Source: an uncultured Pelagibacteraceae bacterium (GTDB lineage Bacteria; Pseudomonadota; Alphaproteobacteria; Pelagibacterales; Pelagibacteraceae). Taken from it: a stretch of 64,000 nucleotides of DNA. The translations under genes were made by a program, and so were the position numbers. This document shows positions 37,652 through 43,845 of the stretch, in pieces; within the stretch, counting starts at the first letter, position 1; the number at the start of each line of letters is the position of its first letter. The notes under the pieces are model-generated. The model made no database searches, was not told the origin of the DNA, and worked only from the letters and a program-made list of their open reading frames with translations. The stretch spans positions 1 to 64,000 of the forward strand of contig CABYCN010000002.1 of NCBI GenBank assembly GCA_902517455.1, given 5' to 3'.

Positions 37652-37679
37652 ATGAGAACGTTTTAACTTCTGATTCGGT

Positions 37680-37757: not shown

Positions 37758-40226
37758 ATGAAAAATAAAATTACTGCAGTTATTGGTCCCACAAATACTG
37801 GAAAAACTCACTTAGCCATAGAAACTATGTTGTCTTTTGAAACTGGAATGATTGGTTTTCCACTAAGATTATTGGCCCGAGAGGTATATGACAAAGTCAT
37901 TCAAAAGACTAGTATTGATAAAGTTGCTCTAATAACTGGGGAAGAGAAAATTATACCAAATAATTCAAAATATTTTTTATGTACTGTTGAGTCTATGCCT
38001 ATTGATAAACATCTAGATTTTGTAGGTGTTGATGAAATTCAAATGTGTTGTGACCACGAAAGAGGACATATTTTTACAGATAGACTATTAAATATGAGAG
38101 GGAATAAATTAACAATGTTAATGGGATCAAGTACTATCAAAAATATTATTTCATATTTAGATGATGATATAGAATTTATTTATAGAAATAGACTTTCTAA
38201 ACTTTCTTATGCTGGACATAAAAAAATATCTCGAATAAATAGAAAAACTGCCATTATAGCTTTCTCAACAGAAGAAGTTTATGCAATAGCTGAGTTGATT
38301 AGAAGACAAAAAGGTGGTGCAGCAATTGTAATGGGATCATTGAGTCCAAAAACCAGAAACGCACAAGTTGAGCTCTATCAATCAGGTGCTGTAGATTTTT
38401 TAGTTGCAACAGACGCTATAGGTATGGGAATAAATATGGATCTAGATAATGTTTTTTTTTCTAACTTAAAGAAATTTGATGGTAAAAAATTAAGAAAACT
38501 AAATTTATCTGAAATTGGACAAATAGCTGGAAGAGCAGGGAGATATTTAAATGATGGAAGTTTTGGAATTACAGGCGAATGTAAAGAAATCAATTCTGAG
38601 GAAGTAGATCTCTTAGAAAATCATAAATTTGAAGAAATTCAATTTCTTTTTTGGAGAAACTCAGAGTTAAATTTTAATAATTCTTCTACACTTATAAAGT
38701 CTTTAGATGAAAAACCTAAAAAAAGATGGCTAAGAAAAATTAATGAATGCGAGGATGAAAAAGCACTCAAATTTTTTTTAAAAGATAAAAATTTTGACAA
38801 TATTGAATTCGACAGCAAAAAACTCAGTCTTTTATGGGAATGTTGTCAAATACCAGATTTTGTTAAAAAAACTTATGGTAATCACTATGAAGTGATTGCA
38901 AATGTTTTCAAATATTTAAATAGTAAAAAAGCTAAAATATCTGATGATTTCATGCGTCTTCAGCTAATGAAACTGGACAAATTAGAGGGAAACGTAGATT
39001 CTTTGTCAAATAGAATTGCAAATGTTAGAACTTGGTCTTATGTTTCGAATAAAAATAATTGGGTAGAAAATCAAAAATACTGGATAGAAAAAACAAAGTT
39101 ATTAGAAGATAAACTTTCAGATAGACTTCATGAAGAACTTACTAAAACATTTATTGACAAAAGAGCTAGCGTTCTTGCGAGAGGATTAAAACAAGACATG
39201 AAATTTGATACTAAGATATTGAAAAATAATGATGTTATAATTGATGAACAATTTATCGGAAGAATAAATGGCCTAAAATTAGAGTTAGATTTAAAAAAGG
39301 GAGCATTAGAAACAGACATCAAATCTCTTAAAAAAGCTGCAAGACAGACTGTTGGTCCAGAACTTGAAAAAAGAATTGAAATAATTATTGAAACTGCATT
39401 GATAGAATTAAAAGATGATTTCAAAATTTATTGGAATGAGGCATCAATTGGAAGATTAATACCGGGTAGTGACTATTTAAATCCAAACATTGAATTAATT
39501 GTTGATGATATTTTGGATAATAATCAAAAACAAAAATTAATCAATTTTTTAAAAAAATGGTTGAAAAATAAAATTAACACAATTCTCAAAAGTCTAATTG
39601 ATTTAAAAGATATCAAAGAAAAAAACTCATCAATTAAAGCCCTGGCATATCAACTTTATGAAAATAATGGTGTTCTTAAAAGAGAGCAAGTTTCTGAATA
39701 TCTTTACAAATTAGGTAAAAATGAAAGAAAAATTTTAAGAGAACTTGGAGTAAAATTTGGAAGATATCATATTTTTTTGTATAGATTAATTAAACCAGAA
39801 GCTGTTTCTATAAGAACTTTGCTATGGAAAAATTATCATCAGAAACATTTTGACTTAAAACCACCAACTTTTGGTTTAAACTTTTTAAACAATAATAGTC
39901 TTAAAAATAGAAATTTTATGTTGCTTTGTGGTTTTGAAAAATTTGAAAACTTTTACGTAAGAATTGATATTCTTGAAAGACTATTTATGCAAATTATTAA
40001 TTCTAATTCAGAGAAAGAAATTCAAGTGATTCCCGAAATGCTAAATCTATTAGGTTGTAGCAAAGATAATTTCAAAAAACTTTTGAAGAATATGGACTAC
40101 AGAGTTACTGAAAAAGATAAAGAAGTATTTTTTAAGTATGCTCCCAAAAAGAATTTTAAGAAATTAAACAAAAAGAATTTAAAAGAAAATCCTTTTGGTG
40201 TTTTAAAAAATTTAAATTTTAATTAA
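37758..40226 (+). CDS. Suv3-like DEAD/H helicase family protein
   Basis: GPTNTGKTHLAIE, PLRLLAREVYDK, LVATDAIGMGINMDLDNVFF, QIAGRAGRY. Confidence 0.9.
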   Translation: MKNKITAVIGPTNTGKTHLAIETMLSFETGMIGFPLRLLAREVYDKVIQKTSIDKVALITGEEKIIPNNSKYFLCTVESMPIDKHLDFVGVDEIQMCCDHERGHIFTDRLLNMRGNKLTMLMGSSTIKNIISYLDDDIEFIYRNRLSKLSYAGHKKISRINRKTAIIAFSTEEVYAIAELIRRQKGGAAIVMGSLSPKTRNAQVELYQSGAVDFLVATDAIGMGINMDLDNVFFSNLKKFDGKKLRKLNLSEIGQIAGRAGRYLNDGSFGITGECKEINSEEVDLLENHKFEEIQFLFWRNSELNFNNSSTLIKSLDEKPKKRWLRKINECEDEKALKFFLKDKNFDNIEFDSKKLSLLWECCQIPDFVKKTYGNHYEVIANVFKYLNSKKAKISDDFMRLQLMKLDKLEGNVDSLSNRIANVRTWSYVSNKNNWVENQKYWIEKTKLLEDKLSDRLHEELTKTFIDKRASVLARGLKQDMKFDTKILKNNDVIIDEQFIGRINGLKLELDLKKGALETDIKSLKKAARQTVGPELEKRIEIIIETALIELKDDFKIYWNEASIGRLIPGSDYLNPNIELIVDDILDNNQKQKLINFLKKWLKNKINTILKSLIDLKDIKEKNSSIKALAYQLYENNGVLKREQVSEYLYKLGKNERKILRELGVKFGRYHIFLYRLIKPEAVSIRTLLWKNYHQKHFDLKPPTFGLNFLNNNSLKNRNFMLLCGFEKFENFYVRIDILERLFMQIINSNSEKEIQVIPEMLNLLGCSKDNFKKLLKNMDYRVTEKDKEVFFKYAPKKNFKKLNKKNLKENPFGVLKNLNFN

Positions 40227-40641: not shown

Positions 40642-40967
40642 TGACATATATAGTTAATGAAAAATGTATCAAATGTAAACTAATGGATTGTGTTGAAGTC
40701 TGCCCGGTAGATTGTTTTTATGAGGGAAAAAATATGCTTGTAATTAAACCTGATGAGTGTATAGATTGTGGCGTTTGTGAGCCAGAGTGTCCTGTCGATG
40801 CTATAACTGCTGATACAGAACTTGAAAGTGAAAAATGGTTAGAAATCAATAAAACTTATTCTGAAATCTGGCCAAACATAAATCAAAAAAAAGATCCACC
40901 AATGGATCATGAAAAATATAAAGATGAGCAAAATAAATTTGAGAAATATTTTAAAGAAAACCTTTAA
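40641..40967 (+). CDS. fdxA: Ferredoxin, 3Fe-4S/4Fe-4S (FdxA type)
   Basis: [21 protein letters not shown] and [16 protein letters not shown]. Confidence 0.93.
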
Positions 40968-41799
40968 AAAAAAGAAAATACCTAAAAAAAAATCAAAAAA
41001 AAAAAATCTTTTAAGAGTAAACAAGACAATAAAAAAAATTACAAAAAAAACAATTAAATCGAAAAAAAGTGTTTCCAAAGTTTTGTTAAAAACCTCTAAA
41101 TCAAAAGTAAATAAAGTAGAGTCTAAATCACAGGAAAACTTAAGGATACCTAAGAGTAACGAGGCTAAACCGGAAATTAAAAAAGTAAAAAAACAAGATA
41201 CTGAAAAAAGAGAGTATAAAATTAAAGATTATATTAATTATCCAAAACACGGCGTAGGACAAATCACAGAATTTAAGAAAATTAGTATTGGAGGAATAGA
41301 TGTAGAAACTTATATAATTAAGTTTGAAAAAGACAAAGCAAACGGTATGGTTCCAGTAAATAAACAATCACACCTTCGCCCATTAGCTTCAATTAACCAA
41401 ATTAATAAATGTATATCGATTTTAAAAAGTAAACCTAAAATTAAAAGATCTATGTGGAGTAGAAGAGCTCAAGAATATGAAGCAAAAATATCATCAGGTA
41501 AAATATATGAGTTAGCTGAAGTTGTAAGAGACTTAAATAAAGGTGATGACCTTATGGTAGATCAATCTTATAGCGAAAGGCAACTTTTTGAAAAAGCTTA
41601 CGAAAGAATTCAATCAGAATTTCAAATTGTGTTGAATCTTTCTTTAGAAGATACTCAAAAAAAATTGGATAAAGCTTTAAAAAGAAATTTAATAGTTCCT
41701 AATAAAGAACCACAAACATCTGAAAAAGACTCTTCAAGTTCTCCTTCATCAGAAATTTCTGAGGATGAAACAATTTCAGATAATGAGGAAACATTGTAA
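40909..41799 (+). CDS. carD: CarD family transcriptional regulator with Lys-rich N-terminal extension
   Basis: [37 protein letters not shown] and [17 protein letters not shown]; start uncertain (MKN at 40909 or MSK at 40924), overlapping fdxA. Confidence 0.85.
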
Positions 41800-41810
41800 A
41801 GAATAAAAAA

Positions 41811-41850
41811 AAACGCCTCTCACACGTAAATCGTTATGAGAAGCGTTTTT
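41811..41850. terminator. Probable bidirectional rho-independent terminator
   Basis: AAACGCcTCTCA...TGAGAaGCGTTTTT stem, flanked by A-run on the left and T-run on the right, between carD (+) and a small peptide gene (-). Confidence 0.75.
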
Positions 41851-41869
41851 GATAAAGAATACTAAGCTA

Positions 41870-41947
41870 TTATCTTCTTCTTCTTTTTTTAGCTTTTTTC
41901 TTAGCTTTTTTCTTAGCCTTCTTTGCTTTTTTTCTTCTCTTAGGCAT
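41870..41947 (-). CDS. 25-aa Lys/Arg/Ala-rich basic peptide MPKRRKKAKKAKKKAKKKAKKRRRR
   Basis: Manually translated; ATG preceded on the minus strand by AAGGGAGCTAAAG (SD-like); followed by terminator at 41811-41850; too short for the supplied ORF track. Confidence 0.75.
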   Translation of the reverse strand: MPKRRKKAKKAKKKAKKKAKKRRRR

Positions 41948-41968
41948 CTTTAGCTCCCTTTTTAGTTA

Positions 41969-41989
41969 AACGAATCAAAATGATTCGTT
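41969..41989 (-). promoter_or_regulatory. Perfect 9-bp hairpin in the 5' leader of the basic peptide gene
   Basis: AACGAATCA-AAA-TGATTCGTT inverted repeat. Confidence 0.5.
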
Positions 41990-42144
41990 GTTAGTCTATT
42001 TTTATTTTTTTATATACCTTATGTCAATTCTTTAATTAAAGTAAAAAATTTTAAAAATAAATTTTATTAAAAAATATTTTTATATTTTAAAAAGTGTAAA
42101 AAAGTTAATGTTTATGCGCTTAATAATCTAATATTTAAAGTAAA

Positions 42145-43845
42145 TTAATAAAGTTTTTCTAAATCTTCTTTATATTTTTTTAAAATATTTTTTCTTTTTA
42201 GTTTTAATGTTGGTGTTAACATTCCATTGTTAATTGTAAATTCTTCCGTGATTAATTTAATTTTTTTTACTTTTTCAACTAAAGATAAACTTTTATTTAA
42301 ATTTTCTAAATAAAATTCAATTTCTTTTTTATTTTCAATAGTGTCAGAAACAATTAATGCAACTAAAAAAGTTTTTTTATCTCCATAAACAAAACTTTGT
42401 ATAATTTTTTCATTTAAACATAATAAATTTTCAATTTTTGAAGGTGAAATGTTGTCTCCACCGAGATTAACTATGATTTCTTTTTTTCTATCAGTAATTT
42501 TTAAATTTCCATCCTCTGTTATCTCTCCTATGTCACCAGTATGCAACCAGCCATTTCTTATGACATCATCTGTCTCTTTTTTCATATTCCAATAACCAAG
42601 CATGATACTTTCACCTTTTACTAAAATTTCACCATCTTCGGCAATATTTACTTGATTTGTTTTAAAAGGAGGTCCTACTGTATCAATTTTGATTTTTTTT
42701 GGAATATTACAACTCACAACAGGAGAGGCCTCTGTAAGACCATAGCCTTGAAGAGTTGGAAGTCCAATTGAGTTTAAAAATTCTCCAATTTTTTGATCTA
42801 ATGCGCCACCTCCAGAAACAAAAGCTCTTAATTTTCCACCAAACTGATTTTTAATTTTTCTTCTTACTAGTTTTTCACAAAAAAAATTAATTGATTTTTC
42901 CTTCAAGGTTAAACGCTCATTATTTAGTTCTTTAATTCCAAGTGAAATAGTAGATGATATCAATTTTTTCTTAAAACCCTTTTGTTTTGAAAAATTCATA
43001 GAAATTTTACTATACAAATTTTGATAGAATCTCGGTACAGCAGTCATAATTGTGGGTTTCGCAATAGACATATTTGATAATAGCTTATCTAAACTTTCAG
43101 CATAATAAATTTTTGCTCCAAGTGAAATTTGAACAAATTGAACTGTGTGTTCATACGAATGAGATAATGGCAACCATGTTAAAAAAGTGGGCTCACTATC
43201 TTTAACTAATTCATTCAATATTTCCTCAGCTCCCTCACAATTTGATAAAATTCCTCCATGACTAAGCATTACTCCTTTAGGATTTCCAGTTGTTCCAGAT
43301 GTATAAATTATACAAGCAAGGTCTTTCCTATTAAGATTTTGATTGAAGTTTATATCAGGATTTAATTTCTTTTTTTTTGAATATATGTTTAAAATATTTT
43401 CTAAGTTATCAAAATTATCATTTATTTTTTCAATAGATAAAATTTTTATTTTATTTGAGATAAATTTTTCAATTTTTTTTAATTGGATTTTATTTGAGAC
43501 AATACAAATTTTTGGATTACAATCATTAATTATGTATTCATAGTCTTTTTCTGAATAAGTTGTAAACAATGGCACTGTGACTCCACCCGCATTCATAATT
43601 GATATGTCCGAGATAAGCCATTCAGGTCGATTCTCAGATAATAGGACACATCTATCTCCTTTAGATATATTTGCTCTTAAGTATCCAGATAAAACTTGAA
43701 TATTTGAACTAACTTGTTCCCAAGTCAAAAAAGCTTTTTCATTTTCTTTTAACCATTTTAAAAATGACTTATCGGCAACTGAGTTTATTTCTTTGTACTT
43801 TTTAAAAAAAAGTTCTACTAAACTGTTTATTCTACTTAATTGCAT
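42145..43845 (-). CDS. AMP-dependent synthetase / long-chain acyl-CoA ligase
   Basis: IIYTSGTTGNPKGVMLSHGG, LQGYGLTEASPVVSCN, GWLHTGDIGEITEDGNLKITDRKKEII. Confidence 0.93.
   Translation of the reverse strand: MQLSRINSLVELFFKKYKEINSVADKSFLKWLKENEKAFLTWEQVSSNIQVLSGYLRANISKGDRCVLLSENRPEWLISDISIMNAGGVTVPLFTTYSEKDYEYIINDCNPKICIVSNKIQLKKIEKFISNKIKILSIEKINDNFDNLENILNIYSKKKKLNPDINFNQNLNRKDLACIIYTSGTTGNPKGVMLSHGGILSNCEGAEEILNELVKDSEPTFLTWLPLSHSYEHTVQFVQISLGAKIYYAESLDKLLSNMSIAKPTIMTAVPRFYQNLYSKISMNFSKQKGFKKKLISSTISLGIKELNNERLTLKEKSINFFCEKLVRRKIKNQFGGKLRAFVSGGGALDQKIGEFLNSIGLPTLQGYGLTEASPVVSCNIPKKIKIDTVGPPFKTNQVNIAEDGEILVKGESIMLGYWNMKKETDDVIRNGWLHTGDIGEITEDGNLKITDRKKEIIVNLGGDNISPSKIENLLCLNEKIIQSFVYGDKKTFLVALIVSDTIENKKEIEFYLENLNKSLSLVEKVKKIKLITEEFTINNGMLTPTLKLKRKNILKKYKEDLEKLY

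Follow-up and report, generated by a model that had tools for sequence, protein, structure and literature searches.

SAR11 bacteria (Pelagibacterales) belong to the most abundant kinds of cell on Earth and have small genomes with little intergenic DNA. In the window analyzed here, a stretch of 64,000 nt from a SAR11 genome, the region next to a CarD gene holds an open reading frame of 25 codons whose product would consist almost purely of Lys, Arg and Ala. Is this ORF a gene, and if so, what does its product do? An earlier, sequence-only reading had taken it to be a real gene in its own transcription unit, and we compared the locus across the order.

Results

The peptide gene and its expression signals

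The ORF lies on the minus strand (41947-41870, stop codon TAA), and its translation is MPKRRKKAKKAKKKAKKKAKKRRRR, in agreement with the sequence-only reading. Every residue after MP is Lys, Arg or Ala, and the Lys and Arg side chains give a charge of +19. The Shine-Dalgarno sequence AGGGAG (41959-41954) stands 6 nt before the ATG, and the segment formed by it and its spacer (AGGGAGCTAAAG, 41948-41959) shows zero variation among the 26 genomes that encode the same peptide. Upstream, sequence matching predicts a sigma-70-like promoter on the minus strand (41999-42027; TTGACA at 42027-42022, a 17-nt spacer and TAAAAA at 42004-41999), in a region of low variation among these genomes. Downstream, a terminator stem-loop (41805-41850) with a T-run on both sides separates the gene from the convergent CarD gene and is common to the two, with a U-tract after the stem; one stem pair is changed from A-U to G-C in four sequences. 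The reading as a separate transcription unit is supported, and the ORF is presumably translated. The upstream flank on the same strand (42145-43845) carries an AMP-dependent long-chain acyl-CoA ligase-like gene, named by eye, which we do not claim as part of the system.

ORFs of this class (20-40 aa, ≥90% Lys/Arg/Ala, at least two Ala) did not occur in 20 windows simulated with a first-order Markov model of the window, compared with one in the real window. The six Arg codons are all AGA, and the Lys codons alternate between AAA and AAG. The codon alternation reported by the sequence-only reading therefore holds for Lys but not for Arg, as no AGG is present, and its use as an argument against slippage is weak. 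As the core consists of exact 12-nt units (AAGAAAAAAGCT), repeat expansion and contraction could plausibly account for its variation in length.

Conservation across SAR11

The peptide gene is real, single-copy and present throughout the order. CarD was found in 172 of 197 Pelagibacterales genomes, and wherever the contig of an examined CarD locus extends beyond CarD, the peptide gene adjoins it on the opposite strand; this holds for both families and for every genus sampled. A degenerate N-terminal pattern matched in 274 of 397 genomes of the order and produced no control matches; the genomes that it missed include ones with the variant N-termini MATKKK, MAKRKKK and MEELK. Among named genomes, exact-pattern matches belonged to Pelagibacteraceae or to Pelagibacterales single-cell genomes and MAGs. 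The pattern was without a match in viral contigs, and a phage origin was rejected. A few genomes seemed to have a second copy, but these matches proved to be the N-termini of large proteins and were rejected too.

The very same peptide is encoded in 26 genomes, between which CarD identity averages only 85%. The start codon, frame, Shine-Dalgarno sequence, stop codon, leader and terminator are kept across the genus and the order, and differences in peptide length are whole codons in all but one of about 105 loci. In the exception (L211, on contig G577:C5 of genome G577), a run of eight A stands for the expected seven near the gene end; this one-base difference shifts the last codons, and the frame continues to 47 aa. 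It may be a homopolymer sequencing error or a real change. Synonymous and amino-acid changes could be compared on few differences, as those inside identical-peptide groups are bound to be synonymous and the gene varies very little overall. A frame or Shine-Dalgarno sequence that relatives fail to keep, or frameshifts among them, would have spoken against a gene; it passed this test with L211 as the lone frame-shifted locus, and the view that it is a gene and not low-complexity noise gains order-wide backing.

Length series and histone H1-like character

The peptide is shortest in the family of the window, where it has 20-32 aa in the window's own genus (g1), 21-24 aa in genera g5 and g6, 31-32 aa in g3, 31-38 aa in g2 when counted from MAKRR, and 34-58 aa, with Pro and Val, in g4. 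In the sister family (f2), it is a protein of 80-99 aa with KAAPKKK/KPAKK repeats behind a short MEELKVIFAKA head. The longer orthologues begin with MAKKRKKAAKKKVAKKPAKRKVAKKKPAAKK (58 aa) and MEELKVIFAKARKKAKKKAAPKKKRKAAKRKPAKKKAAP (80-99 aa). Across genera, the protein diverges in its choices among Lys, Arg, Ala, Thr and Pro. The long forms look like histone H1 tails, and the short forms look like these tails in reduced form; streamlining suggests that the series runs by loss and not by gain.

The Lys/Ala(/Pro)-rich repeat that marks H1-like and AlgP-type tails appears as Lys/Arg/Ala in the window and as KAAPKKK/KPAAKK in the orthologues. The H1-tail-like or compaction-like composition noticed earlier is thus strengthened by the repeats of the second family and by the Lys-rich tails of CarD described below. 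Pfam and NCBIfam gave no match to the peptide even at E 10, although low complexity limits such searches, no HMM of a histone-like family matched it, and no chain in a PDB sequence search, ribosomal chains included, did so. Since homology to a curated family was not found, the peptide is better described as probably working like H1-type tails than as a member of their families.

The CarD neighbor

The convergent neighbor (40909-41799, plus strand) is a CarD/CdnL protein with RID and CarD_C domains and a Lys-rich N-terminal tail. In the window, this tail (40909-41230) is roughly 110 aa long, and its start overlaps the end of a ferredoxin gene (40967). Lys-rich tails of about 55-150 residues stand at the N-terminus of SAR11 CarD proteins, so that the proposed adjacency of the peptide gene to a Lys-tailed CarD was borne out both in the window and in its relatives. 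Lys-rich CarD tails also occur in 6 of 28 other alphaproteobacteria (L105, L108-L110, L119 and L128), and a separate comparable peptide within 1.5 kb of CarD was seen at none of these 28 loci.

A GANTC site in the leader

The leader contains a perfect 9-bp inverted repeat (41969-41989, minus strand; AACGAATCA-TTT-TGATTCGTT), made of two divergent copies of one motif in the layout CGAATCA-N3-TGATTCG. The copy CGAATCA (41981-41987; TGATTCG on the plus strand), which includes a GANTC site, is present order-wide in each of the leaders examined, and the second, opposite copy (41971-41977, TGATTCG on the minus strand) has disappeared or changed in some of the sister genera. In numbers, CGAATCA/TGATTCG was present in all 86 leaders of the window's family and in 21 more, including those of the sister family (two of the 21 come from genomes counted before); of random 75-mers, 2% contain it.

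Nearly all leaders are able to fold into a hairpin. However, the stem in the consensus fold is without two-sided changes, and in genera g2-g4 the partner arm differs and a shifted hairpin forms, leaving CGAATCA unpaired. Conservation of CGAATCA while its partner arm changes is more in keeping with a DNA site than with an RNA stem. The 9-bp repeat of the sequence-only reading is present, but its interpretation as an RNA hairpin only was rejected, a methylation/GcrA-type DNA motif being the better explanation of its invariant arm. An operator of a regulon was likewise rejected, as the palindrome occurs once per genome in relatives and, where checked, only at the peptide gene.

TGATTCG is the extended context reported for methylated GANTC at GcrA-activated promoters of Caulobacter, a preference that the same study did not see in Brevundimonas (PMC7987155). 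A CcrM homologue has been reported in SAR11 (PMC3973325), and Pelagibacter has been reported to be without ctrA (PMC2877005). The conserved extended GANTC (TGATTCG/YGAKTCK) in the promoter region of the peptide gene is of the GcrA/CcrM type. Our analysis revealed the CcrM-type RAMA domain (PF18755) in 24 of 26 relatives, the window's own genome included, and GcrA (PF07750) in 20 of 26; GcrA was not found in the own genome, which is 66% complete. In the window, GAWTC (GAATC/GATTC) is depleted, with 49 occurrences against 96 expected, and is 3-fold denser outside ORFs, whereas GASTC (GACTC/GAGTC) is not depleted (66 against 47 expected). Taken together, the motif, the CcrM and GcrA genes, the GAWTC bias and the reported absence of ctrA make control of the peptide gene by CcrM/GcrA plausible. 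A point against such control is that, relative to the predicted start, the leader GANTC sites fall at about +6 to +22 and not in the -35/-10 region.

GAWTC may be the sequence at which the CcrM-type enzyme of SAR11 mainly acts or matters. The sole other TGATTCG/CGAATCA in the window (37671-37677), in a gap about 80 nt before a large helicase-like ORF at 37758, is a possible second promoter of the GcrA/CcrM type.

Constraint at the nucleotide level

In the 26 genomes with the same peptide, only three codons vary. Variation at the Lys codons is 4-fold lower than at invariant Lys codons of CarD, and every Arg and Ala codon is the same throughout. The mean pairwise codon difference is 0.028, compared with 0.188 expected from L20 codons of matched residues in the same genomes; 20,000 resamplings never reached 0.028, in a comparison that ignores relatedness but in which both genes share the genomes. 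Avoidance of long A-runs may account for part of this constraint at best: the longest run is 7 (P about 0.04-0.045), and five AAG codons are present against 1.7 expected. The near-frozen synonymous sites vary far less than those of CarD and L20, so that the nucleotide sequence is constrained as well; this hints at an additional RNA-level role, which the reading favored below would not cover. The transcript folds better than its shuffles (z -4.3), largely owing to the hairpin and the terminator. A 3' UTR segment (CTTAGTATTCTTT, 41850-41867) is complementary to AAAGAAGGCTAAG in the coding sequence, and this pairing is kept in most relatives of the window's genus (GCT to ACT, G-U to A-U). As a general feature the pairing was rejected, since it is absent in other genera and from the consensus fold.

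Discussion

We favor, with somewhat better than even confidence, the reading that this monocistronic gene encodes a minimal, H1-tail-like nucleic-acid-binding peptide, streamlined from a longer form and probably tuned by CcrM/GcrA. The peptide would be a presumably disordered polycation, the reduced form of the 80-99 aa Lys/Ala/Pro-repeat protein that the sister family of SAR11 still keeps. It would bind nucleic acid by charge, possibly RNA but most likely DNA, as the long forms are H1-like, and thereby compact or screen the nucleoid. Transcription is predicted to start just upstream of the invariant CGAATCA (TGATTCG) site, and a start beside this GANTC suggests that replication and the cell cycle probably tune the gene by way of CcrM methylation and GcrA. 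Between these parts of the proposed function, electrostatic binding to nucleic acid in the nucleoid appears most likely, and cell-cycle timing is perhaps its complement. A methylation-clocked (CcrM/GcrA) minimal histone of 20-30 aa, reduced from an H1-like ancestor as the genome was streamlined, with synthesis tied to replication and a role in nucleoid compaction in the smallest and most abundant of free-living cells, is a possibility that we hold only tentatively.

Composition alone cannot separate DNA from RNA, the ribosome or other polyanions as the target. Tiny Lys/Arg-rich basic ribosomal proteins exist, and a product of 20-32 aa with extreme charge, presumably well expressed in view of its strong Shine-Dalgarno sequence, promoter and terminator, might be a small ribosome- or rRNA-associated protein instead of a nucleoid protein. 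We consider this rather unlikely, because the PDB search matched no ribosomal chain, a length that varies from 20 to 99 aa in repeat units is easier to reconcile with a disordered tail than with a docking protein, and the long forms have the Lys/Ala/Pro composition of H1 tails. It is quite unlikely that the transcript acts mainly as a regulatory or structured RNA, for example a dual-function sRNA, with the peptide secondary. The frozen synonymous sites, the folding of the transcript and the possible 3' UTR-CDS pairing in the window's genus would fit such an RNA, but the start codon, Shine-Dalgarno sequence, stop codon and frame are kept amid whole-codon length changes and protein divergence, the pairing is confined as described above, and A-run avoidance may explain part of the constraint.

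The strict convergent neighborhood, the tail of CarD itself and the H1-like tails fused to CarD in some other alphaproteobacteria would suit a detached basic tail that works specifically with CarD/RNA polymerase and aids CarD at promoters. This is improbable, as genes that converge from separate promoters do not form an operon, gene order may persist without a functional link, and CarD already has its own tail. The H1-like tail of AlgP organizes polyphosphate granules (PMC9239181), which raises the idea of a similar organizer of these or other granules; polyphosphate kinase (PF02503) is, however, patchy, with a match in only 4 of 26 relatives, whereas every locus checked has the peptide, and we regard a granule role as very improbable. 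Low-complexity composition in an A-rich genome could also yield noise or an upstream leader or attenuator peptide, but the order-wide conservation with Shine-Dalgarno sequence and frame, together with a terminator followed by a convergent gene that leaves nothing downstream to regulate, reduces this to a negligible chance.

A gene kept in every lineage with a frozen sequence is likely important, yet this one is without a protein family model. Should it prove to compact DNA, the peptide would rank with the smallest known histone-like proteins, and its reduction from about 99 to 20 residues would be visible as a series. If the GANTC site is functional, it would be a concrete CcrM/GcrA target in a clade reported to be without ctrA (PMC2877005), and cell-cycle control in SAR11 would become testable.

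Unannotated SAR11 sORFs with ribosome-binding sites have been reported for HIMB5 (PMC6429828) and HTCC1062 (PMC2704228), and we found no paper on the function of this peptide. At least three sORFs appear in the survey of HIMB5, whose main-text examples do not name CarD; an earlier listing of the peptide sORF there is possible (PMC6429828). The HTCC1062 survey covered IGRs above 26% GC (PMC2704228); at 22% GC, the IGR of the peptide gene would have escaped it, provided that the cultured strain resembles the window here.

Several known systems resemble the one proposed here. H1-tail-like Lys/Ala/Pro domains of bacteria bind DNA in AlgP and PhaF of Pseudomonas (PMC9239181). The SAR11 proteins share with them the Lys/Ala(/Pro) repeat, the high basicity and the predicted disorder, with KPAA/KAAPKKK-type repeats in the long forms; in contrast, the SAR11 peptide stands alone, without a folded domain, reaches down to 20 aa and, in the window's genus, is nearly without Pro. 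Two reports describe chlamydial HctA and HctB as condensing the chromosome (PMC13317200, PMC8343073). These are likewise small, very basic and H1-like, but are much longer and have no detectable homology to the SAR11 peptide. To our knowledge, SAR11 has no developmental cycle of the chlamydial kind. In Myxococcus CarD, with its HMGA-like domain, and in the Lys-tailed CarD proteins of alphaproteobacteria, a basic chromatin-like tail is also tied to CarD, whereas SAR11 has a separate convergent gene and its CarD tail is N-terminal. The GcrA/CcrM promoters of Caulobacter and Brevundimonas offer a parallel for the leader, with GANTC in an extended TGATTCG context near a sigma-70-like promoter and with CcrM and GcrA genes in the clade; the candidate SAR11 sites differ in apparently lying just downstream of the predicted start.
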